Both the position numbers and the translations under genes were made by a program. The notes below the pieces were generated by a model that was given only the letters and a program-made list of their open reading frames with translations, had not been told where the DNA came from and ran no database searches. Below, in pieces: positions 922-18,360 of a stretch of 18,360 bases of DNA. The stretch comes from Chrysochromulina parva (taxonomy: Eukaryota > Haptophyta > Prymnesiales > Chrysochromulinaceae): positions 1-18,360 of the forward strand of contig PJAB01000995.1 of assembly GCA_002887195.1 (NCBI GenBank), read 5' to 3'. Numbering within the stretch: the first letter of the stretch is position 1; every line of letters begins with the position of its first letter.

Positions 922-2355
922 TCAGACCATGGCTGTACCAGCGGAGGGCCTCGCCTCGGGCAGCGGGGCGAAGGGGGCGCTGACGAGGATCTGGTGAACG
1001 ATAAGGCAGCAGCGCGGCATCTCACACTCGTCGTCGATCATCACGCCGTCGGGCAGCAACGGCGCTTTGCAGAGGGGGCAGCTTGTCGAGATCATGCGCG
1101 CTCGGGTCCAAGAGAGCAGGCACGCACGATGGAGCATGTGCCGGCAAGGCAACACGATAATCTCCTCGTTTTCCTCGTAGGCTTCCAGGCAGATAGGGCA
1201 CTCGGGTGCCTCGGTCCAGGCGCGAGGACTGAAGGCCTCCCCTTGGAAAGTATGCAAGTACGTCGGCCCAATCGCTGTCAGCGTCGACGAGGTTTGATCC
1301 ACCTCCGCTGGGGCCGGCGCCGGCGGTGCTGGCGCCGGTGCCGGTGCTGGTGGTGCCGCGGCACCCTGGGCGTCGTCGTGAGCGGGCGTCGAGTCGGGCA
1401 GCTGGTCGCTGCACAGGGCGGCGGCCTGCGCGGCGGCCACTACGCGCAGCTGCGCGATGGTCGTCACGTTACGCGCGTCGATGACGCGCTCCAAAATCTT
1501 CTGCTGCCGTCGAGTCTCACGTGTCCTCGTTTGGAGACCGCGAGCGACGGCGAGGTGGAGGAAGAGCCCAAAGAAGCCGAGCGAGAGACAGAGCGAGTAG
1601 GGCGAGCACGAGCGCGCGAACAGGTCGAACGAGTGCTCGGTGATCAGCACCACGTACACCTCGTGCGTCTGCGAGTATCGAAAGCGGATCACCTCTCCCA
1701 GCTCTGCAGAGGCACGTGTGTACGGAACGATGCGCTGGTAAGCGACGATGCACCGCTCAGGCGCGATGTTCATCACACGCACCGCCAGGTACCCTACCAG
1801 CAGGTAAACGCCCACGAGCGCGAACGCGAGCCGCCGCGCCATCAGTAGGCTGTTGCCGTCTGAGCGCTGCTCAAGTATTCCGACCGCCAACCCAAGGGCC
1901 GCCGCGGCGAGGAGCGCGCCGACCGTGAACGCGACGGTGGCGAGCTCGGCATCGAGCCCGGCATCGGGCTCGCTCGCCGCGCTCGTGACGTTGCGTGCCG
2001 CGTCAAACATGACGAGCGGCGGCGACGGCGACGGCGGTGGCAAGGGCGGCAGTGGCGGCGGCGCGACGGGCGCAAAGGCGCATCTGTGGCAGGCGTGCGG
2101 GCATGCGCGGCATTGGCCAAAGTCTGCTGCGCTGCCGCACGGGTTCGCGCGGCAGCCCGGATCAAACTTTTCCAGCCACGCGCACGTGTACAGTCCGCCA
2201 CCGTAGGCGGACCAGGCAGGATCATCGTGGCACCAGCCCTCCTCGTGCTCGCCCGCCTCGCCGGATGGCTTGAACTCATCGAGGATTAACCACACGCTCA
2301 TTATGAGCGCCGCCGTCGCGAAGGTGCACAGAGAGCCGCAGGCGATCCGGACCAT
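922..2355 (-). CDS. multi-pass membrane RING-H2 protein, probable E3 ubiquitin ligase
   Basis: The product is 477 residues from an ATG at 2355. Near the C-terminus, residues 386-429 have exact C3H2C3 RING-H2 spacing: Cys386, Cys389, Cys404, His406, His409, Cys412, Cys426 and Cys429. The core motif CPICLEAYEENEEI is followed by the usual Trp416 of the E2-binding face. Hydrophobic segments lie at about 6-25 (signal anchor or signal peptide), 139-161, 174-194 and 252-274. Between the first and second is a lumenal or extracellular Cys-rich module (eight Cys between 42 and 92), then a Pro-rich stretch (96-114). A Pro/Ala linker (about 335-350) precedes the RING. By family knowledge RING-H2 membrane proteins transfer ubiquitin from an E2 to membrane or ER substrates; the substrate is unknown. 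Intronless as read. The overlapping plus-strand frame at 994-1848 is a shadow. Confidence 0.85.
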   Translation of the reverse strand: MVRIACGSLCTFATAALIMSVWLILDEFKPSGEAGEHEEGWCHDDPAWSAYGGGLYTCAWLEKFDPGCRANPCGSAADFGQCRACPHACHRCAFAPVAPPPLPPLPPPSPSPPLVMFDAARNVTSAASEPDAGLDAELATVAFTVGALLAAAALGLAVGILEQRSDGNSLLMARRLAFALVGVYLLVGYLAVRVMNIAPERCIVAYQRIVPYTRASAELGEVIRFRYSQTHEVYVVLITEHSFDLFARSCSPYSLCLSLGFFGLFLHLAVARGLQTRTRETRRQQKILERVIDARNVTTIAQLRVVAAAQAAALCSDQLPDSTPAHDDAQGAAAPPAPAPAPAPPAPAPAEVDQTSSTLTAIGPTYLHTFQGEAFSPRAWTEAPECPICLEAYEENEEIIVLPCRHMLHRACLLSWTRARMISTSCPLCKAPLLPDGVMIDDECEMPRCCLIVHQILVSAPFAPLPEARPSAGTAMV

Positions 2356-2754
2356 GGAAGGTTGTCAGGTGCTCCAGAAGCTGGATGATCGGCAAGCGAT
2401 TACGATTGGGCGGGTTGCAGACCTCTGTGGGTCAAACATGCGCATCTGACGGAACTCGTCCCGAAAAGTCAAGAAAAGACAAGTCAAGTCAAGTCAAGTC
2501 GTTTCTCGTCAAGTCAAGTCAAGTCAAGTCACCTCACGTCAAGGTAAGTCTAAAGTCAAGTCACGTCAAGTCAACCGTCCGGGGGGTGTCCGGCGCGCCG
2601 AGTTCGGACCGTACAATTACATCCGCAACTCAGACCGACAGTGACTTGACTACATTGTAACGGACATACGTAAACGAAGATCGTTTTCTGAGAAGGGTTT
2701 CTTCAGACAGTGCGTGGTGCTCGCGCTCGAGGGTTCGGCGACCGCGTGCGCGTG
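2356..2754. promoter_or_regulatory. spacer holding the RING gene promoter and COMMD2 3' flank
   Basis: About 400 bp between two minus-strand genes. The RING gene starts at 2355, so its promoter should lie here. The main feature is an AAGTC pentanucleotide array (2466-2574). The right part (2575-2754) is unique sequence with no gene. No core promoter element can be named with confidence. Confidence 0.35.
2466..2574. repeat. AAGTC pentanucleotide microsatellite
   Basis: The pentamer AAGTC is repeated in tandem, with perfect blocks at about 2481-2500 and 2511-2530 and diverged units (CACGTC, AAGGTAAGTC) around and after them. It lies about 110-220 bp upstream of the RING gene start on that gene's template side, so length variation could affect its promoter. 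Read across the array, the frame is open but has no protein character. Confidence 0.9.
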
Positions 2755-3384
2755 TCACAGCCGTCGTGCAATGCGGCGCGAGTGGCTCGACTTATCCTCT
2801 TTGAGTGCTTCCTCGAGCTCGGAGGCGAGCCGGCGCAGATTGGGCAGGTCCGCCTGCATCAGGTGCTCCGCCGTGCCCTCGGGGCCGCCGCTTGTGTGCA
2901 ACCGCAGCAGGAAGCTCGCCTCAGGCGCCTTGCGCGAACGGTACCGGCCGCCGAGCTCCACCTGCAGTCGCCATTCGAGGCCGCGGTACTCGGGCAGCGC
3001 GAGCCCTGTGCGCAACTCCATCTCCATTTCGGGCGCCTCTGCCTGATAGAAGCTGATGATAGCCGCGCTCGTCTCCTCGGGAAGCTCGAGCGCGAGGCCC
3101 TGCAGCAAGTCCTCGGCGGGCCGCGAGGCGTGGGCTGCGCTCACCATCAAGTAGCACAGAGCGCGCACGGCAGCCGCCACGGCGTCCGGGTCCACGCCGA
3201 GCCCTTTCGCCGCCTTGCGGAACACTGCCGGGTCCTCAGGCGCGCGCAACAGCTGACGCGCGACGCCGCAGAAGGCCGTCACGTGCTCGGCGGGGAGCGA
3301 TTTGACAAGCGCCAAGTCCGCCGCCAACCCAGGCGGCGCCTGCCCTTGCTGCGCGTGGGCGGCAGAGTGCATAGTCGATGGCAT
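2755..3384 (-). CDS. COMMD2: COMM domain-containing protein 2 (COMMD2)
   Basis: The product is 209 residues from the ATG at 3384; the frame continues to 3417 only through non-ATG codons. The N-terminal half is helical (LALVKSLPAEHVTAFCGVA). The C-terminal COMM domain starts near YRGLEWRLQVELGGRYRS, matching the Trp-containing first strand of the family, and continues through SFLLRLHTSG and LPNLRRLASELEEALKE. The extreme C-terminus, SSHSRRIARRL, resembles the basic tail typical of COMMD2, and length is close to the roughly 200 residues of animal COMMD2. COMMD proteins form the ten-subunit Commander/CCC assembly that works with retriever in endosomal recycling and also modulates NF-kB and cullin ligases in animals. 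It is divergent from the 780-residue gene, with 167 bp between the two start codons. Family call is firm; the paralogue number is slightly less so. Confidence 0.9.
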   Translation of the reverse strand: MPSTMHSAAHAQQGQAPPGLAADLALVKSLPAEHVTAFCGVARQLLRAPEDPAVFRKAAKGLGVDPDAVAAAVRALCYLMVSAAHASRPAEDLLQGLALELPEETSAAIISFYQAEAPEMEMELRTGLALPEYRGLEWRLQVELGGRYRSRKAPEASFLLRLHTSGGPEGTAEHLMQADLPNLRRLASELEEALKEDKSSHSRRIARRL

Positions 3385-3551
3385 GGGGGTGTCGGCGAGA
3401 CCGGAAGCGGAAAACACATTCTTCGTGCCCTCACAGAGGACAGGGAAGGAATTGACTGTGAAAACACATGTGACAGTCCCAATCTCCCTCCTCCCCCTCC
3501 TCTCTGCGCTGAGGAAGGTATTGAATGTTCACACCTCAAGCTGTCTAAAAC
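3385..3551. promoter_or_regulatory. bidirectional promoter between COMMD2 and the 780-aa gene
   Basis: Only 167 bp separate the two start codons on opposite strands, so both promoters must share this interval. It contains a pyrimidine-rich tract (about 3480-3506, CTCC repeats) and two AAAACACAT words (3411-3419 and 3460-3468). No TATA box is evident. A GCGAGACC-GAAGC-AAAC string at 3395-3415 resembles one just upstream of the pyrophosphatase start (7115-7136). Confidence 0.5.
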
Positions 3552-5894
3552 ATGGTGATCGCTTCGCGGTTTGTCGCCGAGACGGCCACGATTCTTCAGC
3601 CGAAATTCCTATCCCTTTCGCCAGCGGTAGGCCTGCTCGCTCGCTCGGCGCCCACGGTCGTCACCAACCTCATGTCCATGCCGTCGGCCGGGCAGCGCGA
3701 CTGCGAATGGTCATCTGCGGCCGCTCTCTGTCGAGAGCTCTACTTCCAGCAGCGTGCTGGCGCACCGCCGCTCGTGTCGCGCTCTCGCTCGCACGCTGCG
3801 ACGCACCTCACGAGCGCGGCTGCGGGCCACATCCTTGGCCTTGGTCTGCGACCAAAGCCCGATGACACAGTCCTGGCCACGCTTCGAGCGCAAGGCATCG
3901 AATCGAACCACGTGGACGGCAAGTGGACGGGCGTCTCTTTGGCGCGCTACCGCCGGCTCATCGATTTGCTCGCGGCGAGTCCCGCACGTGGGATGACCGT
4001 CCCGCTCTTCTTGCGCTTCGTCTGGGAGCGCGCTCAGTCCAAGCGGTGCTTGCTGCATTTTCTGCTGGCCCTCGACACACACGTGGCAGTTCTGAGACCG
4101 GAATGGCGCGATGCTCTCACCGCCCACGACGGCGCTGCAGCCGAGGAATGGTGCCTCTCGGCCTTTGTGCCCTCGGAGACCAGCGCGGCCGCCGTCGAGA
4201 CCGCGGCGCAACGCATCCTATGCTCGGAGGATTCGATCTCCGCATCCCGAGATTCGATCTCCGCATCCTCCTCGTCGTTGCCAACAGGGTCGATGGCGGC
4301 GTCTTCGGCGTCGAGGGCGACATGCCCGAGCTTGGCTCGTGCTGTGGAAGTGCTCGCCGCTAATTTGGGCGACGTACACGCCTTCAAGCCCCCGAACTCG
4401 CTCGAGCGCCATGCCGTCGGCGGCGGCGAGGCGCGCCCCGACTGCGTCGAGATGGTCGTGCGTGAGCTCTTCGACTTGCTGTTGTACGACCCGATGAGGC
4501 ACGCCTTCGACCCGAGCCGTCTGCCGCCGGGCGCCTCGGCCGCGCTGCGAGCGCACTATGAGCAGCGCGCGAGTGGCGCACTGGCCGACCACGCTGCCGG
4601 TGCGGCGTGGTTCCCACTCTGCCAGGGTATCCTCGGCTGTGAATACCTATCGACGGCGCCCTCTGGCGAGCGGTACGAGGCAGCGCCAAGCCTGAGCAAT
4701 GTGAGTCGGCTCGCCGCGCATCTGCTGGGCGTCCCGCTGGGCGAGCAGCCCGAGCGCCGCTGGCGGAGCCTTGTGCAGATCGCTGAGCTATGGAATGGCC
4801 ACGTGGTGCAGACATGCGCCGACGGTGGCGCACCCCCGGCCTTGAGGTCTTTGAGGTTGGAGGTGGATGAGAGCGGTACCGGCATGTATCGCGCCATGCT
4901 GTCAGATCACACGCGGCGGCGCGAGCTGGCCCGGCTTCGGCTCGAAAGCAGCCGTCACGGCGTCGAGCTGCTGCTGGAGACCGATCCGCCGATTGCCATT
5001 GCGACGCACCGGCGCCTCGATGCGGCATGGTCGGAGGTGACGATGCGCTCACATTTGGAGGCATGGAGGAGCACTGCGCGGCCGCAGGCCACCAGCTCAC
5101 ATCTCAACTCACAACTTGGTCACGATCGCCGCAGTGACCCGGCAGAGGTGGAGGCAGGCGAGGCGGCGGCGGAAGCGGCGCGCGTGGCGGTGCTGCGGGT
5201 GCTGTGGCCTATCGTCCTGGGCGATCGAATGCTGGATGCACTGCCAAATAAGGCCAGCGGCGATTGCATGCTGCTGCTGCTTGAAGCGCTCACGAGCGCG
5301 CGCTGGGCAGATGAACTGGAGAGGCTGTGGAACCCTACCGTGGAGGCGAGCACGGCACATCTGGCAGAGGCCTCTCAGCTGGATGCCGCGCGAAGCAGAG
5401 CTCACGAGCGTACCGTGCGGGCCATCGAGGCGCTCAGCGCGCTCGCGGCCGCCGCGCCATCCGCGCGGCTCGGAGATGGCGACGAGGGCCGCGGGGTCGC
5501 CGCCCGTGCCTGGCTCGCGTGGCTGCTCGAGCGAGCGCCAGAGACCATGTCGCAGTCCGCACTGATCCGCGCGCTCCTCTCCGGCAGCCGTGCCGGCAGT
5601 TTAGCCGGCAGCAGCAGCAGCGGCGGCCGACAGGAGGAGGGCAGCTGGAGTGAGGTGCATCGGGCCGGTGCTGAAGGGAGAGCTGACGCCCGCGACGGCG
5701 CGATGCATCTGCGCACATTCAGCGACGCGGTGCGTCATGGGCTGCGCCACCGCGAGGACGCCGCTCTGGTGTGCACGCTCGTCAGCTACGCGCGGGGCGA
5801 GGTCTCGCTCAGCGCTGCGTGCCGGCGCGTGCAGCCAGAGTCGTTGGGGTCCGTGCTGCGTGTGCTGCGATTCTCGTGCACGCATAGCGTTTAG
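3552..5894 (+). CDS. uncharacterised 780-residue protein
   Basis: A single open frame of 780 codons begins at an ATG in good context (AACATGG) and stays open for 2.3 kb with coding-like composition. It is largely helical and Ala/Leu/Arg-rich, with no predicted membrane segment or signal peptide. A short low-complexity Ser patch near residues 226-250 includes two DSISASR heptads encoded by a 21-bp tandem duplication (from 4229). The best-conserved-looking block is around residues 300-420, with strings such as CVEMVVRELFDLLLYDPM and WFPLCQGILGCEYL. The C-terminal third (about 540-700) looks like helical repeats. A Ser/Gly-rich linker sits near 680-695. I do not recognise a family. It starts head to head with COMMD2, and its 3' end is convergent with the 6377 gene. 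Confidence 0.75.
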   Translation: MVIASRFVAETATILQPKFLSLSPAVGLLARSAPTVVTNLMSMPSAGQRDCEWSSAAALCRELYFQQRAGAPPLVSRSRSHAATHLTSAAAGHILGLGLRPKPDDTVLATLRAQGIESNHVDGKWTGVSLARYRRLIDLLAASPARGMTVPLFLRFVWERAQSKRCLLHFLLALDTHVAVLRPEWRDALTAHDGAAAEEWCLSAFVPSETSAAAVETAAQRILCSEDSISASRDSISASSSSLPTGSMAASSASRATCPSLARAVEVLAANLGDVHAFKPPNSLERHAVGGGEARPDCVEMVVRELFDLLLYDPMRHAFDPSRLPPGASAALRAHYEQRASGALADHAAGAAWFPLCQGILGCEYLSTAPSGERYEAAPSLSNVSRLAAHLLGVPLGEQPERRWRSLVQIAELWNGHVVQTCADGGAPPALRSLRLEVDESGTGMYRAMLSDHTRRRELARLRLESSRHGVELLLETDPPIAIATHRRLDAAWSEVTMRSHLEAWRSTARPQATSSHLNSQLGHDRRSDPAEVEAGEAAAEAARVAVLRVLWPIVLGDRMLDALPNKASGDCMLLLLEALTSARWADELERLWNPTVEASTAHLAEASQLDAARSRAHERTVRAIEALSALAAAAPSARLGDGDEGRGVAARAWLAWLLERAPETMSQSALIRALLSGSRAGSLAGSSSSGGRQEEGSWSEVHRAGAEGRADARDGAMHLRTFSDAVRHGLRHREDAALVCTLVSYARGEVSLSAACRRVQPESLGSVLRVLRFSCTHSV

Positions 5895-6376
5895 AAGAAG
5901 TGTAGTCTCGGTGTACAGTACCCTCGCCGCACCCGTCTTGATACTTGACGTCTGTACCACGACGCACGAGTCCACGACGCGCGTGGAGGTGTACCCCGTG
6001 TTCGACAGTTCCGCGACTTAAGTTCAAAGCGCGTTGCCATGCGCGTTGCGTGTTGCGACCGGCAACATATGCGGCATGATCATGGGCATGATATGCCGGA
6101 CGGGGCGGACCGATTGCGCGGCCAACCCCGCTACGCCTACGGCCGGCGCGGGGATGGGGGCGGATGCGGTCCCGCCGCACCGGTTCGCGTCAATATATTC
6201 GAGTTTCGACGCCGCCTTTCCTGCTAGGGAGTGCCTTCGAGCGGTGCCTATGGTTAGACTTTGTTATGAATTTCTTGACTAGAGCTTTACTTGGCAAAAC
6301 CGTGATCAGCAACAAAGCTTTAACTAGCGCCTATACGCCGCAGCCGATGGGCAATGGCCGGGCTCACGTATAGGGC
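5895..6376. other. convergent intergenic region, nothing recognised
   Basis: About 480 bp between the stop of the 780-residue gene and the 3' end of the minus-strand gene. It is less GC-biased than the coding regions, especially 6190-6330, as expected for 3' untranslated and terminator sequence. A nearly direct duplication of GGCTCACGTA lies at 6361-6370 and 6374-6382, next to the 3' end of the minus gene. No tRNA, rRNA or convincing small ORF is visible. Confidence 0.4.
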
Positions 6377-6877
6377 TCACGTAGGGCGACGGAACGGGGC
6401 CCCCGCAGGGTCGTGATAGGCGCGGTCGTCAATAGGCCTCCAGCGCAGCGTGGATTCGAGATTGGCGCGGGCTGAGTGCGTCCGTTGCCGCTCCGCCTCG
6501 AGCTGGCGCTCCATCTTGCGCACTTTTTGCCTCCCAGCATGCCTGGCGCCGATGTACGGCTCTTCGACCGGCACTGCTGGTTCGCGCGGATAGATAATAG
6601 GCGGACCATTTCCGAGCGCCTCACCCACCTGGCTCAGCGCCTGCGGTGTCAGCGCGTGGCGCGTGGCAGGTCTAGGGGTTGATGATGGCCACATAAAATG
6701 GGTGCCGGTTGAAGTCGAGAAGGATACCGGCTCATACCAATCCCGGGCTGAATGTGTTCCTGTGCCCCCCTTCGTGTCCCAATCCCAAGGATTGTGCACC
6801 TTGTAGTGTACCACCATCTTTGGCTCGCGCTCCTCCCTCTCGCGTCGCAAGTTCCTTAGCACGAGGGAGGATCCCAT
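6377..6877 (-). CDS. uncharacterised basic protein, 5' end uncertain
   Basis: The open frame runs from 7042 to 6377, but its upstream limit is a stop and the first in-frame ATG is at 6877, giving 166 residues. The 55 codons upstream (basic, Pro/Arg-rich) could be 5' untranslated or part of a coding exon joined to an unseen upstream start by splicing; an out-of-frame ATG at 7046 exists. The best-defined segment has aromatic motifs such as MVVHYKVHNPWDWDTKGG and ARDWYEPVSFSTSTGTHF. The C-terminal part is a charged helix (RKMERQLEAERQRTHSAR) that could form a short coiled coil. No membrane segment or known domain is recognised. It is divergent from the pyrophosphatase gene and convergent with the 780-residue gene. 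Coding status rests on the long open frame and non-random composition. Confidence 0.5.
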   Translation of the reverse strand: MGSSLVLRNLRREREEREPKMVVHYKVHNPWDWDTKGGTGTHSARDWYEPVSFSTSTGTHFMWPSSTPRPATRHALTPQALSQVGEALGNGPPIIYPREPAVPVEEPYIGARHAGRQKVRKMERQLEAERQRTHSARANLESTLRWRPIDDRAYHDPAGAPFRRPT

Positions 6878-7136
6878 GATTTTGCTTTCGCTCGGTAACT
6901 GGAACGCTCGCCATTTACGTTTCGCGCGAGGAAACGGCTCACGGGCGGCTCGCGGTGAAACCGCACGCGATGGGGGCTCTAGCACCTTTTTGTGAACCTC
7001 GTTCACGTGAAGCGCATTTAATTGCGCACCGATTGACGACACTCATCGCCGCGGGATAGGATCGACTTGATTTGTGCGGCGTGCTTTTGCCACGATTCCA
7101 CTCTCGCGCGGTTTGCGAGACCCCGAAAGCATAAAC
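6878..7136. promoter_or_regulatory. bidirectional promoter upstream of the H+-pyrophosphatase
   Basis: At most 259 bp, and as little as 94 bp if the minus gene is coding up to 7042, separate the two divergent genes. Both promoters and 5' leaders must lie here. The last bases before the pyrophosphatase ATG, AAAGCATAAAC, give a purine-rich context with A at -3. No TATA box is clear. Confidence 0.45.
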
Positions 7137-8947
7137 ATGGACACTGTCCTTGCGGGTGTGCCGACGCTGCACGAGTCTTGCGTGCCGAAGAGCCCGGACA
7201 ACTCCACGGTCATCATCGTCGTCACCGGTGCGGTCGGCATCCTTTTCTCCCTCCTGCTCCTCTCCCAGGTCGCCGCGGTCAAGCTGGACATCGCCTCGGT
7301 GCCGGGCACGAAGCGCAGCAAGGAGTCTGAGGAGTCGAACCTGAAGCTCGTGGAGCTTTACAATGCCATTTCGATCGGCGCCAGCTCGTTCTTGAACGCT
7401 GAGTACAAGCTGTGCGCCCTCTTCGTCGTCGTCGTCTTCCCCGCGCTGTCAGTGCTCATCGCGTGGGGTGACAAGACGAGCGAGGCGTCGTGGGCGTGGC
7501 CTACCGGTCTGCTCTCTGGCCTGTCGTTCGTCGTGGGTGCCGTCACCTCGATGCTCTGCGGCTTCATTGGCATGCGCGTCGCCGTCTTCTCCAACGCGCG
7601 CTGCACTGTCGGCGCGTGCAGCCCCACCGTCGGGTGGACCGACTCGTTCAACACTGCCTTCAAGGCGGGTGGTGTCATGGGCTTCTCGCTGACTGGCATC
7701 GCGCTCCTGTCGCTGTACGCGCTCATCTGCGTCCTCAGGTGCGCCCGCTCGCGCGCCACGCCGCGCCCGACCGTGCCCATGCACGCGCCCACACATGTTG
7801 AATGGACTCCGCAATCGGTCTCTGTGTGGGATTCCTTCACGGTCCCCCCCTCCCACACGCCCCCCTCCACGCGCCCCCTCCTTGCACGCGCCCTACCTCC
7901 CCGCCCCCTCCCCCCCCGTCCCCTCACACGTGCCCCCCCCATATACCGTGGGTCCGCAGCCCCTTCTTCAAGGACGACGAGGCTGGGATGCTCAACCTGA
8001 TGGAGGTCGTTGCGGGCTTCGGTCTGGGCGGCTCATGCATCGCCATGTTCGGTCGCGTGGGCGGCGGCATCTACACGAAGGCGGCGGATGTGGGCGCCGA
8101 CCTCGCGGGCAAGGTGGTCCAGGATCTTCCCGAGGACGACGTGCACAACCCGGGCACCATCGCGGACAACGTCGGCGACAACGTCGGTGACGTGGCCGGC
8201 ATGGGCTCCGACCTCTTCGGCTCTTTTGGCGAGGCGAGCGTTGCGGCCCTCCTCGTTGGCGCCTCGTCGGCGGGCATCTACGCCGCTGGGTGGGGCGCCC
8301 TCATGTACCCGCTCGTGGTCTCGGGCGCGGGCATCATTGCGTGCATCGTGACCAACTACTTCGCGACCGACTTCTTCCCGGTGCGCGAGGAGAACGACAT
8401 CGAGAAGGTGCTCAAGACCCAGCTCCTCGTCTCCTCCCTGCTGATGACCCCCGTCGTCTACTACCTCTCGATCACCCTGCTCCCCGCCGCCACCTGCGGC
8501 GAGTGCGTCGGCGGGTTCGTCGTGGGCAACGTGTGCTCTTCGCCTCTCAAGGCTGCACTTTGCGTCATCTTCGGCCTCTGGGGCGGTTGCGCCATCGGCT
8601 TCATCACCGAGTTCTTCACGTCCTTCTCGTACAAGCCCGTCCAGGATGTTGCGGACTCATGCCGCACCGGCGCCGCGACCAACATCATCTACGGCCTCGC
8701 GCTCGGCTACAAGTCGGTCATCCTCCCGGTCTTCATCCTCTCAGCCATCGTCTTCGGCGCCCACACGATCGCGGGCTTTTACGGCATCGCGCTCGCGGCC
8801 CTCGGGATGCTCTCGAACCTCGCGACGACCCTCTCCATCGACGTGTACGGCCCGGTGTGCGACAACGCGGGCGGCATCGCCGAGATGTGCGAGCTGCACC
8901 CGTCGGTGCGCGAGAAGACGGACGCGCTCGACGCGGCCGGCAACACG

Positions 8948-8982
<35 letters not shown>

Positions 8983-10122
8983 CGCGTGCCTCGTCGGCCT
9001 GGCGCTCTTCGGTGCCTTCGTCACCCGCCTCAACGATGCTGGCGCCGCTCAGGCTGTCGATCTCCTCGACCCGATCACCTTCGCCGGCCTGCTCGTCGGC
9101 TCGATGCTCCCCTACTGGTTCTCCGCCATGACGATGAAGAGCGTCGGCCTCGCGGCCAACGCGATGGTGAATGCCGCAGCGGCTCTTCCTCTGATTGCCT
9201 TGCATGCATGCAAGTGCCCACCACAGCGCCCTCGCGGCCAACGCGATGGTGATGACCACTCATTGCGCTCGATTGCCCCCCTCATCAGGTGCTCGAGATC
9301 AAGCGCCAGTTCGACCTCAACCCGAACCTGCTCATCCCGAACCACCCCGACCGTCCTGACTACGACAAGTGCATCGCCATCTCGACGGAGGCCTCCCTCT
9401 CGGAGATGGTGCCGCCTGCTATCCTCGTCATGTTCTCGCCCATCATCTGCGGTGTCTTCTTCGGCACGCGCTGCGTCACCGGCCTGCTCGCGGGCGGCAT
9501 CGCCTCGGGAGTCCAGATGGCCATCTCGTCCTCCAACACGGGCGGCGCTTGGGACAACGCCAAAAAGTACATCTCCAAGGGCGCGATGAACGACGTCATC
9601 GCCCGCGAGGAGCCGGACATGGTCAAGAACGGCAAGGTGCTCACGAAGAAGTCGCAGATCTTCAAGGCTGCCGTTACGGGCGACACAGTGGGCGACCCGC
9701 TCAAGGATACGTCGGGCCCCGCGCTCAACATCCTGATGAAGCTGATGGCGATCATCTCGGTCGTCTTCGCACCCCTCTTCCTCGCGATCAACAACGGCGG
9801 TGGCCTCATCGCCTCCACCGGCATCGTCGCCATCCCCGGCTCGACCGCCGCCTTCACCACCACCCTCCTCGCCAACGGCGCCACCGCGGGTGCGATCGCG
9901 ACCCCGATGGGCAACATGTTCGCCGCCGTGCTCTTCCTGACGGGCGCCGCCGTGGGTATGGGCGGCCTCTTCATCGGCCAGCGCATCAAGGACCCGCCTG
10001 TGCTCGTCATGCGCGAGTCGCTCAAGAAGCCGCTCCTCATGTGCCGTGCCGAGAGCGTCGAGGGCACCATCCTTGGCGAGCCCGCGCTCACCACTCCCTA
10101 CACCGCCTTCGGCACCGCCTAA
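7137..10122 (+). CDS. AVP1: vacuolar-type H+-translocating pyrophosphatase, K+-dependent type, 3 exons
   Basis: Spliced as 7137-7738, 7960-9166 and 9289-10122, the gene encodes 880 residues. Each join restores family alignment: LYALICVL to [10 protein letters not shown], and GLAANAMV to LEIKRQF. It hydrolyses pyrophosphate to pump protons into vacuoles or acidocalcisome-like compartments. Signatures seen: [18 protein letters not shown] (235-252), DNVGDNVGD (270-278), [33 protein letters not shown] and [24 protein letters not shown] carries Ala532 and Gly535, the pair found in K+-dependent enzymes; K+-independent forms have Lys and Thr there. Canonical enzymes are about 770 residues and end just after the LMA...VFAP segment. 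Here about 100 residues follow (from about 778), including another hydrophobic helix. Start chosen at MDTVLAG: an upstream in-frame codon at 7074 is not ATG. About 16 canonical membrane helices are expected. Confidence 0.97.
7739..7959 (+). other. intron 1 of the H+-pyrophosphatase gene
   Basis: 221 bp, phase 2, donor CTCAG|GTGCGC and acceptor GTCCGCAG|CCC. Removal joins CVL-S-PFFKDD in frame, matching the family at this point. The second half is extremely C-rich (runs of 6-8 C between about 7846 and 7940) with repeated ACGCGCCC words, so the opposite strand is G-rich. Confidence 0.93.
9167..9288 (+). other. intron 2 of the H+-pyrophosphatase gene, carries a copied splice junction
   Basis: 122 bp, phase 0, donor GCGATG|GTGAAT and acceptor CTCATCAG|GTGCTC. 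Splicing gives [11 protein letters not shown], as in the family. A 22-bp segment spanning the last 18 exon bases and the first 4 intron bases (9149-9170) is repeated exactly at 9231-9252 inside the intron, offset 82 bp. A 14-bp perfect palindrome TTGCATGCATGCAA lies at 9200-9213. Confidence 0.93.
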
Positions 10123-10123
10123 G

Positions 10124-10259
10124 CGCATTTGGGGGCACCGCCTGAGGCAGGACCTAACCGCATTTGGGGGCACCGCCTGAGGCAGGACCTAACCGCATTG
10201 GGGGTCACCGCCTGTTGCAGGACCTAACCGCATTGGGGGTCACCGTCTGAGGCAGGACC
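10124..10259. repeat. four 35-bp tandem repeats after the H+-pyrophosphatase stop codon
   Basis: Units begin at 10124, 10159, 10194 and 10229, each starting CGCATT(T/G)GGGG and containing CACCGCCTGAGGCAGGACC with a few changes; the last unit is incomplete. The final codons of the gene (GGCACCGCCT at 10111-10120) match an internal part of the unit, so the array appears to have grown from the end of the coding sequence. It lies in the 3' untranslated region. Confidence 0.95.
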
Positions 10260-10301
10260 GGTAAGGGCGTTGGTGCGCCGAAGGCGGTACCTCTGGGTGA
10301 T

Positions 10302-10332
10302 GGGGAGGGAGGGGGGAGGGATGGGAAGGGGG
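10302..10332 (+). other. possible G-quadruplex motif
   Basis: At least four runs of three or more G separated by single A or AT (GGGGAGGGAGGGGGGAGGG, then ATGGGAAGGGGG) fit the G3+N1-7 quadruplex pattern. The motif is on the sense strand, in the probable 3' untranslated or flanking region of the pyrophosphatase gene. Confidence 0.6.
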
Positions 10333-10891
10333 CGAGAGGCGGCGCCTCGAGATGCATACCTGCTCGCCGTACCTGCTGGGTGCCGACTGTCAGCCGAGCA
10401 ACTGACGAAGCTGACGAAGCTGACGGCGCGGCCTTGGATCGGGGTGTGGCGGCGGGTGGGGTGGCGAATCGGAGCGGTCGATCCAAACCCAGCGGCCAAA
10501 TGGTGGGTGCAGGACGCATCACGATCATGCACGTGTGGTCATGCTATCAACGCTCGCCGCAACGACATACAGTTGCACCGGGCCGTGCACGGGTGTAGGC
10601 TTTTGTAACCGCTGCCCGCAGCCACGTGGACTCTCGTCGGACGTCGGTCGTGTCTGGAGCGCGGCGCGCGGTGCATGCGTTGGTGTGTTTTCGTCCTAGA
10701 TTCGGGCCGATCCGCATCCGGCCGGACGGACCGGCGTGGCGGGGATTTTTTTTTATATAACATGATCGGCCGGGCGCACCATATCCGTACTGGGCTACGA
10801 GAGACGGGGGCCAGCCGGACAGGCAGTCAGAGTCGAAGTCAGAGGGCCGGCCGCCGCCGCCCCGCGGCCCCTGTTAACGCGCGAGGCCCGC

Positions 10892-10949
10892 CTCGAGGCT
10901 CCGCTCGCGACGCGTTGCAGCTCGCGGCTCCGCTCTCGACGCGTTGCAG
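10892..10949. repeat. two 29-bp direct repeats
   Basis: Adjacent copies at 10892-10920 and 10921-10949 both end in CGACGCGTTGCAG and differ at two positions. They sit in the spacer about 60 bp beyond the 3' end of the UBA-PRA1 gene. No function is evident. Confidence 0.85.
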
Positions 10950-11008
10950 GCCGCGCTTTGCCTCGCGCGACTAGTCACCGTGTCTACACGGCCTCTACTG
11001 TGTGGGCA

Positions 11009-11638
11009 CTAATCTGACTTCTCCACCGAGCTCTTGAAGTAAGCCCAGCGCGAATTCAACGTCCGCGCCCGAAAGCTGGCGTGCCCGAGTACCACTCCAG
11101 CACAGAGCACACTGACGCGCATGACGGTGGTGGTGGCGTCGAGCCAGTTCACGAGGAGCGACGAACCGATCAAAGCGATAACTAATCGCTGGTTGAGACG
11201 CAGCGGCGCCATGTTCCACTCGGCGGGCATCCGACCATCCCACTCCGAGGCGCCGTAGTGGAGCGCGATCGATGCGCCCAGCAATGCAAGCAGCTTCGGC
11301 TGCTGCAACGCTGAAATGCCCACGATCGCCCCGCAGATGATGGCGTAGTTGGCACGGTAGTAAAGAAGGTTGGTCTCGATGCGCTCGTGCAGGTGCTCAG
11401 GCCACAGAAACTTGTCAAAGAACTCTGACCACGGCTGCTGGTTCCTGAGGAACGCGTTGATCCGCGCCACCAAGGGGCCACCCTGCGCGCGCTCCCTCTC
11501 GCGCCTGTGCGCTTTCAAGAGCTCGGCGGCACGCTCAACGTTTCCAGACGTTGCCTCGAGGGCGAGGCGCGCTTCCACGACGCTGAAGCCCATCTCGACG
11601 AGGGCTTGTAAGCGGGCCGTGGACCCTTCGGCTCCCAT
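11009..11638 (-). CDS. PRA1: UBA domain fused to PRA1 (prenylated Rab acceptor) domain
   Basis: The product is 209 residues from the ATG at 11638. The frame is open upstream to 11875, but that would overlap the divergent aldehyde dehydrogenase start, and the extra residues have no domain. Residues about 8-43 form a UBA domain with the diagnostic MGF loop (Met16-Gly17-Phe18) and the helix GNVERAAELLKAH. After a charged linker, residues about 58-192 match the PRA1 family: RNQQPWSEFFDKFLWPE, then ERIETNLLYYRANYAIICGA, then paired hydrophobic hairpins at about 98-125 and 150-185. PRA1/Yip3 proteins reside in ER and Golgi membranes, bind prenylated Rab GTPases and influence their membrane delivery. 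The UBA domain adds predicted ubiquitin binding, which standard PRA1 proteins lack. Intronless. It is head to head with the aldehyde dehydrogenase gene. Confidence 0.88.
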   Translation of the reverse strand: MGAEGSTARLQALVEMGFSVVEARLALEATSGNVERAAELLKAHRRERERAQGGPLVARINAFLRNQQPWSEFFDKFLWPEHLHERIETNLLYYRANYAIICGAIVGISALQQPKLLALLGASIALHYGASEWDGRMPAEWNMAPLRLNQRLVIALIGSSLLVNWLDATTTVMRVSVLCAGVVLGHASFRARTLNSRWAYFKSSVEKSD

Positions 11639-11807
11639 TTTTCTCTGCGCCCGCGGACGAATTCCAGATTCTCTTTCGGAAATACATGATATTTCCCAAA
11701 GTCGCCGCCCCGCGTAGCACAGTGTGCGACGTTCAGGCTTTAGATGTGCAAAAAAGGGTTCACACATTCCAAGCGAAATTCCACAAAGGGCTTCTTCATC
11801 TGCGGAC
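11639..11807. promoter_or_regulatory. bidirectional promoter between UBA-PRA1 and aldehyde dehydrogenase genes
   Basis: Exactly 169 bp lie between the two divergent ATGs. The region is less GC-rich than the genes and contains a short A-run (AAAAAAGGGTTCACACATTC near 11750-11770) close to the dehydrogenase start. No TATA box is seen. Size and arrangement match the COMMD2 pair. Confidence 0.5.
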
Positions 11808-13656
11808 ATGCAGCGCTTGGTTGTGCTCGGGTCTGTCGCGCGACGCGGTCTGAGGTCGCGGCTGATTCGAACCACTTCTTCGCAGCCGCACTATCCACTC
11901 TGGCTCGACGGCCAGCCCGCCGAGGCCATCGACGGCGCCACACTTCCGATCGAGGACCCCTCCACGGCGACCACGTTTGCTACGACGGCGCTGGGCTCCG
12001 AGGCAGACATTGCAGCGGCCGTTGCCTCGGCCAAGCGCTGCCATGAAGAAGGCCACTGGAAGCGAATGGGCGCGCGCGGTCGAGGCCGGGTCTTGCGATC
12101 GGCCGCCAACAAGCTTCGCGAGAGGCTGCCCTTGCTCGTTGAGCTGGAGACGCGTGCGACGGGCCGCGCGCGTCGCGAGTACGAGGCGCAGCTGGGCCGC
12201 GTACCCGAATGGCTTGAGTATCACGCCTCGCTGGCCGAGAGCGTCGAGGGCACGGTGCCTCCGTTTGCCGACGCGACTGACCACCTGGCGATTGTGCGCC
12301 GTCGGCCACTCGGCGTGTGCGGTCTGATCACGCCGTGGAACCACCCGCTGCTGATCGCGACGAAGAAGGTGTCGGTGGCGCTCGCGACGGGCAACACGAT
12401 CGTGGTCAAGCCACCCGAGCTCACGCCGGCGTCCGTCGTCGAGCTCGCACGCTGCCTCACTGAGGCGGGCGCGCCGCCGGGCGCGATCAACGTGTGCACC
12501 GGCCTTGGGCCAGTTGCTGGGAGAGCTCTCGTAGAGCATCCCGATGTGGTGAAGATCGACTTTACGGGCGGCACCGCGGCCGGGCGCACGATCGGCGCGC
12601 TCGCGGGTGCGCAGGTGAAGCACTACTGCGCCGAATTGGGCGGGAACGCTCCCGTGCTCATCTTTGACGACGCCGACCTGGACGAGGCCGTCAACGGCGT
12701 CGCCTTCGCCGCTTTCGTCGCCTCCGGGCAGACTTGTGTCTCTGCGAAGCGCATCCTCGTGCATGCGCCGATCGCCGATGCCTTCGAACGCAAGCTCGTG
12801 GCCAAGGCCAACGGGCTGCGGCTCGGCCCGCCGATGGAACTGGCGACCCAGATGGGTCCGCTTGCGTCCGCAGGTGAGTGCGATGGATTGCGACGGATTG
12901 CGATGGATGGTGATGGATGGTGATGAATTGTGATGGATTGCGACGGATTGTGATGAATTGTGATGAATTGTGATGAACTGTGATGAATTGCGATGGATTG
13001 AGATGGATTGTGATTAATTGCGATGGATTGTGATGAATTGCGATGGATTGAGATGGATTGTGATTAATTGCGATGGATTGTGATGAATTGCGATGGATTG
13101 CGATGGATTGTGATGAATTGCGATCGCGCTCGTGTCCGCAGCGGCGCTCGCCAAAGTGGAAGCACAGCTTGCCGCCGGATTCGCCGAGGGAGCTGTCGCT
13201 CTGGCAGGCGGCGGCCGGCCGAGCGCCGCACGCTGCGCGCTCACTAAGGGCTACTATCTCGAGCCGACTATCTTGGGTCGCGTCGCGCCGAGCATGAGCT
13301 GTGTCCGTGAAGAGATCTTCGGGCCGGTCGTTTCGCTTCAGACGTTTGCCGATGAGGCCGAGGCGCTTGCGCTCGCCAATGCAAACGAGTACGCGCTCGG
13401 TGCGGGCGTGTGGACGCGCGACTTGAAGCGCGCCCATCGGGTCATGGAGGGGCTTCGCGCGGGCGTCATTTGGGCCAATGCGCACCACCGCAATGCGCCT
13501 GACGCGCCCTGGGGCGGCTTCGGCGCTTCCGGCATCGGGCGGGAGAATGGGATCGACGCACACCGCGAGTACACGGCGAGCGTCACGATGATCGTGCGCA
13601 CGAGTGAGACCAAGGAGGACTGGTTCGCAACGGCCGTGGGTGCGAGGTACGGCTGA
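11808..13656 (+). CDS. ALDH: NAD(P)+-dependent aldehyde dehydrogenase, 2 exons
   Basis: Spliced as 11808-12873 and 13142-13656, the product is 526 residues. It belongs to the ALDH superfamily, which oxidises aldehydes to carboxylic acids. Visible catalytic features: Asn178 in ITPWNHP, the cofactor-binding Lys201 in VVKPPE, FTGG at 252-255, general base Glu276 in ELGGN, nucleophile Cys310 in SGQTC, and EEIFGPV in exon 2. The first 25 residues (MQRLVVLGSVARRGLRSRLI) are Arg-rich without acids, which suggests a mitochondrial transit peptide. The ATG at 11808 is preferred; the open frame extends back to 11724 without need. The splice join gives GPLASA-ALAKVEA, the expected GPL...KVE region. Substrate cannot be deduced; the fold resembles broad-specificity or betaine/aromatic aldehyde dehydrogenases. 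Convergent with the RdRP gene. Confidence 0.95.
12874..13141 (+). other. aldehyde dehydrogenase intron made of a minisatellite
   Basis: 268 bp, phase 1, donor CCGCAG|GTGAGT and acceptor GTCCGCAG|CGG. Removal restores the ALDH frame. The word GTCCGCAG occurs immediately before both splice points (12866-12873 and 13134-13141). Retention would introduce stop codons, because TGA recurs in the repeat. Confidence 0.95.
12881..13124 (+). repeat. 10-bp minisatellite, 24 units, with a 50-bp higher-order period
   Basis: Consensus (C/T)GATG(G/A)ATTG repeats 24 times in perfect 10-bp register from 12881 to 13120, plus a 4-bp remnant. Units vary at positions 1, 4, 5, 6 and occasionally 8-9. The 70-bp stretch 12981-13050 is identical to 13031-13100, so a five-unit block was duplicated as a whole. 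The sense strand is nearly free of C beyond unit position 1. The array fills about 90% of the intron. Confidence 0.97.
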
Positions 13657-14471: not shown

Positions 14472-17400
14472 TCAGCGTCGGGAGAGGAGCAGCCGCATAT
14501 TCCTTGGAATGTGCATCTTTGGGGCGGTATGATCCCCCCCACGCTCGCACAACTCGAGATGCACCGCACGGCACTTGATATGTTCCAAAAAGTCGCCGGC
14601 AACCGCCCAAACGAAAGACAGACCGGTGCCCGCGTGCGCCGATTGGCTTTGACCGTGACGACTGCCGCCACTCGCCGCGACGGTCTGACTCATCTGCCCA
14701 GATGCTTCCATGGCAGGCAATACATAAGCAGATGCGCGCTCTGACGTCGGAGGCGCCGATGCTTGGCGTCCGCGCGCCGCCTGGTAGGTTACGCGGTACA
14801 TGGCGGAGACCTCGAGGAGCAGTCGATCTGGAGGGTTCACCACCGGTCCGAAGAGGCAGTCCTCGCCTTCGTACGTCGAGAGGAGCACGGAGCGGTACGT
14901 CGACTGGAGCGCAGTGATTCGCCCCAAACGGCGTTCCTCGGCGTCCTGCCCGGCGCACTCCTCGAGCACACGGGCTATCTGTCGGCCGTATTGCTCATGC
15001 AACTTCTTCCATTTGGCATGAAACCTGGAGGGCAAGGCGAGGGGGAGAGTGAATGCCAAAGGGCGCGTGGCCAGAGCCGAGGCCAATAGCACAGGTGGAA
15101 TTCCCTTGGCCACAGGTGGAATTCCCTCCAAGGCCAATAGCACACGTGCCCACACGTGGAAGAGCGGGGGCACACACGTGGAAGGGCGGGGGCACACACT
15201 GTTCGCTGCCCTCCAATTGTAGCATTGGATCGAGGATCACCGGCGCACTCTGCCGAGCGCTTGCCTCCGCCAGGACTTGCAGTAGGCTGCCGTGCAGGCG
15301 GCCGAGGATGGACGAGGGGGGCGATGGGCGGTAGGTGATGTCGGTGCGCAATGAGCGGCCGCGCATCCACTCCGGCCACGAGCGCGTGCGCAAGTTGCTC
15401 GGGATCGGCGGAAGGACTTCACCAGTGACCCCGACGTCGAGTGCCGCATAGTAGATGTCGATGAGTTTCAGCACGCGCGCATCGCCGAGGCCTACTTCGT
15501 CAGTGAGCGCCATCAGGTAATTAGCCGATTCACCCACGAGCGGGGACGACTTGTAACGAGCTTTGAGCACCTGCAAAATCAGCTGGCACTGCATGGCGCC
15601 AGATTGCGCGCGGTGCAGCGAGTGAGCCGAGGGCGTTTTCGTGCTGTGTGCTGGGCGGGAGCGTGGGCACGAGCGTGGGCACGCAGCGTCGAATCAGAAG
15701 GTTCTATCCCACCGAGGGTCATTACCTGCAGACTTTGTGGATTCGCGTCTGGCGTCGTGGCAGACTTTCGCCCGCGGGGGGGCTTCTCCCACGGGCGCGC
15801 TTCGGCGAAAAGGCGCACGAGGGTCGGGTCGCTGATGACGGTGAACTTGTCGCCGTCGTGGTCAGAACCCGCGATCGTGTCGGCGATCGCGCGCTCGCCC
15901 TTGGTGGAAAAGAAGACCGTGTGTGCGCGGCAGCGGTCGACGCCACGCAGCAGCGCATCCAGCTGGGGCGTGCGCGTGTGCCGGAGCTTGCGCACGTCTC
16001 CCGCGTGGCACCCCGGACTCTTATGGATCAGTACCTCTGGCGCACGCTGGCCGTCGCCGTCGCTGTCGCACATCTGATACGCGAGATCAAACCCATCGAC
16101 GACGAGACACACGTGCCCTTCTGGAAGCGAGTTGGTAGGGTCGGGCTGCCCCAATACATTGACCGCAGTATGTGGGGGCAGTGGCAGCTTAAAACTCCCT
16201 TGGAGCGAAGTGAGGCATTTGTCTTCTAGGCGTCGAAGCAGCTCGACTAGACGCGGCTCGTGTAATGGGTCGAAACCGCTCAACACCATCGAGCTGGCGG
16301 AGACGCCCACAGAGTTGGACGGATCGGCGCCCGATGCAAGCTCCGCGAGCGCCAACGCTCTCATCCGCTTGATCTCAGCGTACCGTGGGGCTGGTAACGG
16401 TACGCTACTCCCAAGCGGGGCCTTTTGCGGAGCCTCGTCGCTGCCGCCGGTGAGGAGCCTCCGCACGCGGCGCACCTCTGCCTCCTGCAGCCCAGTGAGG
16501 TAACAAGCGAGGGCCTCCCATCCAGACGGCCCGCCGGCACGCCGCGCGCCGTCCGCAAGGATCTCGATGAGGCTGGAGCTTAGCCGTGCGCTCGGCGCGC
16601 GCTCACTCGTATCGCACACTTCGAAGCGGCAGAAGCGGGCACGAAGCCCCTCAGAAGGTGATGTGCGATGGGGAGACGGCTGGGCTGTCGAGTCCGACCC
16701 ACCTACCGGCCCTGCAATCCCGTCCACCCCCCCACCGTCCGCCCCCCCATCGTCCACCCACCCGATCCCGTCCCACCCCCCACCGTCCACCTTTACCATC
16801 GATCTTCTCCGCAACACGATCACTCCGCTCTGCAGCGTGCCGCACGTGCAAAGGGTGCCCTTGGCCAACAAGCCCATCAGCCACAGGCGCAGCTGGGTGA
16901 CCAAAGGCGCTGAGGCGGCGTCATGATCAGCGTCCCTCACCAGCCGACCGCTCACCACCGCCGGTATGCGCCGGGCGAGGTCAAGTGAGATGAAGCCGGC
17001 ACCGTCGCTCATCAGCCGCGGCTCGCCATCCGCGTCCACAGCAGTCTGCCCACTCGGCATGGTGCCGACAATGTCGTCGCACACGTACACTCTGACGAGC
17101 CGGTCCGTGCCCGCTGGCAAGCTGGCGCACTCGGCTACTGTCAGCGCGCCATTGCAGTGCTGCACACAGAAATCCACGTCCTCGAGCGCGCGCACGGTGG
17201 ACGAGAACATGAGCTCAAGACGCTTCAACAGCTTCTCCACCGAAGGGAGTGTCTCAAAGGCGGCAAGCAGGCTTCGCGCATCGCCTGCTGTGCGCCACGC
17301 TCGTGGCTCAGGCTCACGCGTGTGCGGTGCCCACGACGGCGTCGCCACCGCCACAAAGTGCACCTTAATGTCCGTTATCTTGTGATCCGTCTTTGCGCCG

Positions 17401-18360
17401 AAGAACTCGAAGCGCTTGCCGCAGACCACGAGGCCGCCAGCGAACGCGTCGCTCAACTCGGCGAGCATCAGGCGCTGTGACGGGGTGCCGCTGAAGACAT
17501 CGTCGTCGGGCAGCAGCACACGCAGCAGGTTCGTCGGACCTAGCGTGGCATGCACCATGGTACGGTCGTGTGTCAAGATGCGGTGGCTACCGGCCACGAT
17601 CCTGCCGTGCGCGTTGATCGCCACCTCGTAGATTGGAACACTCCCCGCCGCGAGCAATGCCTCTTCGTCTGGTAAGCGCAGGCTGCTAGCGGTGGCGCAG
17701 CAGGGGAGGTCCAGAGCACGCAGGCAGCGGCCGGCAGCGGAAGGGCCATTGACGAGTAGCTCCATGAGCACTGAGTTGCGCTGAGCGAAGGTGAGGTCCT
17801 CGACGAGGCCCACACGCGCCTCGGCGAGCGCAAACAGCAGTGAGAACACACTTGAGAGGGTTTGGCTTGCATCGCTCTTGTACTCGCGATCGAGCGCGTT
17901 GATCACGTCGGCTGAGAGGTGCCGAAACTCGATGTTCGTCGAGCTCAACATCTCAACCAAGGGTCGTGCAAGAGGCAGCGCGTCGTCGCTCTCGACCTCG
18001 CTCTCGTCGTCGTCGCTCACCGCCACCATGCGGCGACGGGGATGTGACGATGACGGTGCAGCCTCTGGCAGCGCGGCTACGTCACCGGCTACGAGCGTCG
18101 TGCCAAGCGGCCGTTGCCGATCAGCCTCTTGCAGCGCGAGCAGCTGCGGCGTTCCCTCTCTCTGCTGCCGCGCCGCACGCGCTCCTCCTTCATTCACTGG
18201 CCATTGCTTCTCATACTCGGCGAGCGCCGCCGTGCCCACCAGGTTGCGACGTGGCTCCGTCGTCGTGTCGCCCGCACGCCAGAGCACCTTGTACTGGCGC
18301 CTCGTGCCGTCGCCACTGTGCGAGAGGATCCGATCCGCAAAGTGGCTCTGCCCGCTCACT
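14472..18360 (-). CDS. RDR: chromodomain-containing cellular RNA-dependent RNA polymerase (RDR), 5' partial
   Basis: Proposed exons on the minus strand are edge-16797, 16649-15726, 15588-15200 and 15024-14472, giving about 1142 visible residues; the start lies beyond the window. Numbering from the edge, residues 6-53 resemble a chromodomain (HFADRILSH, QYKVLWRAGDTTTEPRRNL, LAEYEKQW), followed by an acidic Ser/Asp linker (115-126). RDR-family motifs then run in order: FAGGLVVCGKRFEFFGAK (about 306-323), MFSSTVRALED, MSDGAGFISLDLA (from 450), PDPTNSLPEGHVCLVV, IHKSPGCHAGDVR, FFSTKGER and the catalytic GSDHDGDKF, with the three Asp encoded at 15863-15849. Downstream exons give LVGESANYLMALTDEVG and a C-terminal LSFVWAVAGDFLEHIK typical of the family. 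Such enzymes copy RNA into dsRNA for Dicer/Argonaute silencing, so this is a cellular, not viral, polymerase. RdRP identity is firm; chromodomain identity is probable. Confidence 0.93.
15025..15199 (-). other. RdRP intron 3, filled with nested tandem repeats
   Basis: 175 bp on the minus strand. Donor GAACA|GTGTGT is chosen because it alone among the nearby GTs keeps frame with acceptor CCTCCAG|GTTTCAT; the join reads EGSEQ-FHAKWKK. Repeats inside, on the plus strand: CACAGGTGGAATTCCCT at 15090-15106 and 15111-15127; AGGCCAATAGCACA at 15080-15093 and 15131-15144; and a 22-bp unit starting CACACGTGGAAG at 15151-15172 and 15173-15194. Confidence 0.75.
15589..15725 (-). other. RdRP intron 2
   Basis: 137 bp, phase 0, donor CTGCAG|GTAATG and acceptor GCCATGCAG|TGCCAG. 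The join gives PQSLQ-CQLILQVLKARYKSS, leading into the RDR thumb-region block. A second acceptor 18 bases downstream (TTGCAG|GTGCTC) also keeps frame. The 12-bp word GAGCGTGGGCAC is repeated at 15659-15670 and 15671-15682 (plus strand). Confidence 0.85.
16650..16796 (-). other. RdRP intron 1, probable, G-rich and frame-preserving
   Basis: 147 bp on the minus strand; donor TCGATG|GTAAAG, acceptor CACCTTCTGAG|GGG after a pyrimidine-rich tract. A donor 6 bases later (AAG|GTGGAC) is also possible. The removed part is Gly/Asp-rich low complexity (repeats of GGTGGACGG with long G runs) inside an otherwise conserved RDR region. The CAG and TAG acceptors upstream break frame. Because the interval is stop-free, it could also be a translated insertion. 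Confidence 0.65.

Follow-up and report, generated by a model that had tools for sequence, protein, structure and literature searches.

A chromodomain-like segment joined to a cellular RNA-dependent RNA polymerase in Chrysochromulina parva, and its helicase-bearing sister genes

It is an open question how cellular RNA-dependent RNA polymerases (RdRPs) are directed to aberrant transcripts at the appropriate locus. In fission yeast, a chromodomain (Chp1, in RITS) and an RdRP (Rdp1, in RDRC) belong to separate proteins that cooperate in silencing. Here, we analyze a gene of the alga Chrysochromulina parva whose visible part joins a chromodomain-like segment to an RdRP. It lies on contig C995 of a 45-Mb draft genome, and this whole contig (18,360 bases) is referred to as the window. 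For Neurospora, the part of PMC2950127 used here describes that QDE-1 makes RNA from single-stranded DNA and subsequently double-stranded RNA (dsRNA), aided by RPA, and that the binding of QDE-1 to RPA requires the RecQ helicase QDE-3. Fusions of a helicase with an RDR-family polymerase are described in the available part of PMC4791657 for oomycetes, Dictyostelium, Hydra and Nematostella, i.e., with a DEAD-box helicase that is called Dicer-like and has a helicase-C domain; in its main text, neither RecQ nor any word starting with "chromo" occurs. Finally, the bdelloid N4CMT and the plant chromomethylases, in the excerpt of PMC8885841, fuse a chromodomain to a silencing enzyme ('histone-read-DNA-write').

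The window gene is encoded on the minus strand, and its 5' end lies beyond the contig, i.e., the frame has no visible start. In the following, C-numbers denote other contigs of the window's own genome and P-numbers related proteins from a database search. The features of the gene are:

14472..18359, minus strand: RdRP gene, 5' end off the contig; predicted exons 18359-15726, 15588-15200 and 15024-14472, 1,191 visible codons plus stop (from the open frame, GT-AG sites and comparison with P0001 and P0006-P0008)
18204..18338, minus strand: chromodomain-like segment with degenerate aromatic cage, residues 8-52 of the visible protein (from Pfam, own-genome profile and cage alignment)
17982..18014, minus strand: acidic stretch DDDESEVESDD in the linker; an acidic run is also found in P0001-P0005
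15759..17540, minus strand: cellular RdRP domain (PF05183), residues 274-867, 175.7 bits for a cut-off of 23.8; same place in the genome search
15849..15863, minus strand: catalytic motif DHDGD (DxDGD) within GSDHDGDKF, aligned with the DxDGD of 11 other rows
15589..15725, minus strand: predicted intron 1 of the visible part, CTGCAG/GTAATG...GCCATGCAG/TGC; frame kept, and P0001, P0007 and P0008 continue LQ/RQL
15025..15199, minus strand: predicted intron 2 of the visible part, donor uncertain among three in-frame sites (15199, 15175 or 15145), of which 15199 fits P0008 best

We read this gene, with a probability of about 0.6, as an RNA-silencing RdRP with an N-terminal chromodomain-like module, belonging to a local family that fuses chromatin-type modules and RecQ-type helicases ahead of the polymerase. 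What the sequences provide for this reading are the joined domains, a DxDGD motif without changes, the conservation of the junction in relatives, two helicase-bearing paralogs, and genes for Argonaute and RNase III. From these we infer nuclear dsRNA synthesis at chromatin as well as the whole mechanism discussed below.

Both the profile match and the DxDGD motif place the gene product among the cellular (RDR-family) RdRPs, with predicted polymerase activity. Among PDB sequences, the RdRP matches 7w82 (E 1.8e-8) and 7w84 (E 3.8e-8) as well as QDE-1 (5fsw, E 1.6e-4). The original prediction had described an uninterrupted frame from the right edge to 16797, an acidic linker, and the catalytic motif in a next exon. 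The linker is present and the frame is indeed open, i.e., it runs from the contig end at 18359 even on to 15582 (926 codons). The catalytic motif, on the other hand, sits within this same frame such that no exon break at 16797 is needed. An intron at 16797 was rejected since the relatives read straight across, with SMVKV or SMIKV kept at this place in P0001-P0005, and the codon-position G+C is coding-like past 16797 according to our reading of the table. The predicted gene model ends with a stop at 14472.

Assignment of the N-terminal segment depends on the profile used. With Pfam Chromo (PF00385, curated cut-off 25.1), the first 68 residues score 16.0 bits (E 0.012) and the first 57 residues 16.8 bits (E 0.0065). 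The whole 926-aa protein has no match to this profile at E<=10, and the segment is not among the 59 matches (46 above cut-off) of a genome-wide PF00385 search. Since it stays below the cut-off, we call the segment chromodomain-like and do not file it as a member. We also built a profile from 23 chromodomains of the window's genome, leaving out the one of C271. This own-genome profile scores the 68-aa piece with 21.9 bits (p 5.6e-9), compared to 12.5 for the best of 20,000 shuffles. Among 3,253 stop-free 68-aa pieces from the window and the RdRP loci, scores above 6 bits are found only for pieces from the C271 chromodomain and from the window segment. The first half of the segment contributes as well: when only the first 24 residues are shuffled and the second half is left as it is, none of 20,000 trials reaches the real score. 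That is, the chromodomain similarity claimed for the N-terminal residues goes beyond chance when judged by the genome's own chromodomains but not far enough for Pfam. A chromoshadow domain is not listed by Pfam at E<=10 in the window protein and was thus rejected as the identity of the segment.

We aligned the segment with the 23 genome chromodomains. The three aromatic cage positions, taken as those of HP1, are H, W and a deletion in the window, and the TWEP motif reads TTEP. Given this degenerate cage, methyl-lysine reading by the segment is unlikely. Docking on methylated histones is therefore doubtful for the window protein, and the original idea that it docks on modified chromatin finds no support for this copy. 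The segment could instead be a divergent member of the Royal family or another small fold whose only role within the polymerase is structural or partner-binding, with no relation to chromatin. The altered cage and the TTEP motif would fit such a fold, and so would the poor structure model of the segment and its PDB matches at E<=10, which comprise only three chains of the chloroplast protein cpSRP43 (E 0.047-0.2). We nevertheless consider this rather unlikely given that the segment obtains its highest score from the chromodomains of its own nuclear genome and that the C271 paralog has a better chromodomain next to a PHD-like finger.

Searching 5.8 billion proteins with the window protein yielded eight relatives (P0001-P0008). 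The junction of segment and RdRP is reached by three of them (P0001, P0002 and P0004; 62-70% identity) and is conserved in all three. Upstream of VLWRAGD, these three show an apparent intron, and the first half of the segment is not visible. The remaining 5/8 relatives are uninformative on the segment, i.e., P0003 and P0005 are predicted to begin after it and P0006-P0008 begin inside the RdRP. If the predicted starts of P0003 (MVSDDED) and P0005 (MVVIDDD) are taken at face value, the polymerase may start at a nearby methionine (residue 111) in the window as well. It would then be an ordinary RDR, and the chromodomain-like stretch upstream non-coding sequence or part of another gene. That the contig ends 22 bases past the segment, with the true start out of view, also leaves room for this. 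We regard such a late start as improbable. At the protein level, the second half of the segment (VLWRAGDxxxEPRxxLVxTxALxEY) is conserved between the window and P0001, P0002 and P0004, in contrast to the variable linker that follows. The codon-position G+C looks coding all the way to the contig end, and a chromodomain likewise precedes the RdRP in C271. We also rejected a retrotransposon chromodomain that adjoins the gene by chance, because the segment precedes the RdRP in three relatives and the C271 chromodomain is found ahead of an RdRP, too. A single polypeptide with chromodomain-like segment and RdRP, as originally proposed, is thus well supported at the level of sequence by the one frame and the shared junction, with the reservation that the segment is only chromodomain-like by Pfam.

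Two further observations concern this region. At window position 18287, where the window is unbroken, an apparent intron acceptor directly precedes VLWRAGD in P0001, P0002 and P0004; it seems that this intron was either lost in the window or gained in the three relatives. Within the linker (18074-18116), a stretch of 43 bases is 98% identical to C285:6411-6453, where the surrounding sequence is different.

The genome has six RdRP loci. On C271, one strand encodes in this order a RecQ-like helicase, a C4HC3 PHD-like finger, a chromodomain, a long linker, pieces colinear with the pre-core module of the window gene (33.8 bits, p 1.2e-12), and an RdRP. The chromodomain shares its frame with the helicase and scores 33.9, 32.2 and 28.6 bits with Pfam (cut-off 25.1); its best PDB matches are CBX1 (E 3.5e-4) and CBX5 (E 7.6e-4). 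With Y, W, and F after a five-residue insert, a full cage is possible according to the alignment. With this possible cage and the PHD-like finger, the chromatin-docking idea fits C271 better than the window copy. The order of helicase, finger and chromodomain is repeated by P0010 (79%) and P0011 (45%). Here, Pfam Chromo gives 24.0 bits for P0010, i.e., just below the cut-off, and no match for P0011, and the own-genome profile 22.6 and 16.1 bits, respectively. In P0011, a single open reading frame (ORF) extends from the helicase through the finger and the chromo-like segment and also covers the beginning of the polymerase module. This beginning scores 12.4 bits, with 0/5,000 shuffles as high, and gives little signal in BLASTP (E 0.83 vs. 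the window, 0.032 vs. P0001).

The helicase profile TIGR00614 (cut-off 219.8) scores 124.1 bits for P0010 and 91.2 bits for P0011, whose ORFs both start after helicase motif I; in C271, this motif is present in an upstream frame. We call the C271-type helicase RecQ-like, with BLM providing the best PDB matches for P0010. The C271-type finger has no match to the PHD profile PF00628 and is not among the best 100 candidates of the genome search. Its eight C4HC3 ligands are invariant in the three C271-type sequences, and Pygopus and ORTHRUS chains match at E 0.33-0.94, such that we call it PHD-like. PHD and chromodomain matches adjoin on the same strand in other genes as well (C41, C996), and the two may thus form a unit that is frequent in this genome. 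On C2093, a minus-strand frame of 445 codons (3-1337, L056) is cut off by the contig edge within a PHD finger. This frame could be what is missing next to the window gene, but about 0.7 such cuts are expected by chance according to a rough hand estimate.

The second helicase-bearing paralog is found on C403 (contig of 27,611 bases):

C403:7325-15664 (L042:826-9165), minus strand: stop-free frame of 2,780 codons that joins a RecQ helicase to an RdRP

Its helicase scores 289.4 bits with TIGR00614 and has a RecQ as best PDB match (1.8e-66); the RecQ zinc-binding domain PF16124 reaches 17.9 bits vs. a cut-off of 25. Among the nine proteins found for C403, three environmental ones combine helicase and RdRP (P0017, P0018, P0019), and the other six list no RdRP domain. 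P0017 (99%; named ATP-dependent DNA helicase RecQ by JGI) has both helicase lobes and the RdRP in one frame. P0018 (57%) and P0019 (41%) comprise the second helicase lobe and the RdRP, with ORFs that begin inside the helicase. The segment between helicase and RdRP is conserved in the C403 type and has a weak Tudor match in one of three members.

These fusions are read from genomic frames, and long stop-free frames are common in this G+C-rich genome (97 of at least 100 codons in the window). Neighbouring genes that are read through, or assembly joins, could therefore mimic fusions in C271 and C403, the more so as C271 needs several introns to join its domains and P0018 and P0019 are without the first helicase lobe. 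We deem such artefacts very improbable. RecQ and RdRP share one stop-free frame in both C403 and P0017, where the P0017 contig of 60,225 bases has to come from another assembly than the one of C403. Furthermore, P0018 and P0019 show the join of second lobe and RdRP down to 41% identity, and two relatives repeat the domain order of C271.

Concerning the remaining polymerases, the RdRP of C1034 (L039:429-5309) has the highest score in the genome (387 bits); its N-terminal part contains a UBA-like match slightly below the cut-off. In C867 the RdRP is the sole Pfam match in the frame, and the C390 match is a fragment. The RdRPs of the window, C271, C403 and C867 show 27-36% identity and all have DxDGD; the placement of C271 and C867 is left unsettled by the RdRP tree. 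With 58 matches to light-harvesting proteins, the genome is that of an alga. It further contains a single Piwi match (183.4 bits) and a frame of 1,197 codons with two RNase III matches, one of them just below the cut-off, in an arrangement as in a Dicer-like protein. The polymerases thus have a silencing pathway to serve. Within the window, the neighbouring genes are:

922-2364, minus strand: RING finger protein
2755-3525, minus strand: COMM-domain protein
7802-10122, plus strand: H+-pyrophosphatase
11012-11890, minus strand: UBA-PRA1 protein
11718-13653, plus strand: aldehyde dehydrogenase

None of these neighbours (922-13653) points to silencing. A short-repeat array (CAATCCATCG-like on the minus strand, 12900-13140) splits the aldehyde dehydrogenase gene and is probably intronic.

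Taken as an RNA-silencing RdRP with a chromodomain-like module, the window protein would act in the nucleus and make dsRNA at chromatin. Reader-type modules may place the machine there, where the degenerate chromodomain of the window copy would more likely bind a protein partner or a nucleosome surface than a methylated lysine. For the sister genes with a helicase, the latter could make single-stranded DNA accessible or release nascent RNA, which the attached polymerase would then copy, as proposed for QDE-3 and QDE-1 as separate proteins of Neurospora. The fusion of RecQ and RdRP in C403 would be expected if both work on one substrate, and a natural fusion that recurs at such low identity provides independent evidence of a common substrate. 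We tentatively extend this, at somewhat less than even odds, to a family of one-protein nuclear silencing engines in this alga and its relatives. Therein, a RecQ-type helicase would open DNA or R-loops, histone-reading modules (PHD-like finger plus chromodomain, or Tudor-like) would bring the protein to chromatin, where the fused RdRP would make dsRNA; the window gene would be a member and may carry a helicase, too. Both ideas, i.e., common substrate and chromatin placement, become testable on a single polypeptide in an alga.

When compared to known systems, the polymerase family is a familiar one, but we found no description of its architecture: among the papers listed by searches of an open-access library, neither a RecQ-RdRP nor a chromodomain-RdRP fusion appeared. 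The original assessment of the architecture as undescribed holds to this extent, but DEAD-box helicase-RDR fusions are known. These share with our genes a helicase ahead of a cellular RdRP. As far as their descriptions in the cited part go, they are set apart by the C403 helicase, which is a RecQ by TIGR00614, and by sister genes with chromatin-type modules. N4CMT and the chromomethylases, as covered by the excerpt, are writers of DNA methylation, whereas the window gene encodes an RNA polymerase. The likeness to fission yeast on which the original prediction was built stands in terms of function, since chromodomain and RdRP are paired in both. They are separate in yeast, however, and the window chromodomain is without most of its cage. 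Furthermore, the RecQ-type helicases on two sister polymerases point at least as much to QDE-3/QDE-1 of Neurospora, i.e., to the same two enzyme classes as in C403. Neurospora has separate genes for the two, whereas they share a frame in C403 and apparently a gene in C271. The window copy differs in that no helicase is visible and that its RdRP matches 7w82 and 7w84 better than QDE-1. By analogy, the alga may produce aberrant RNA and dsRNA in a RecQ-dependent, RPA-linked way, with C403 resembling the separate QDE-3 and QDE-1 of Neurospora joined into one.

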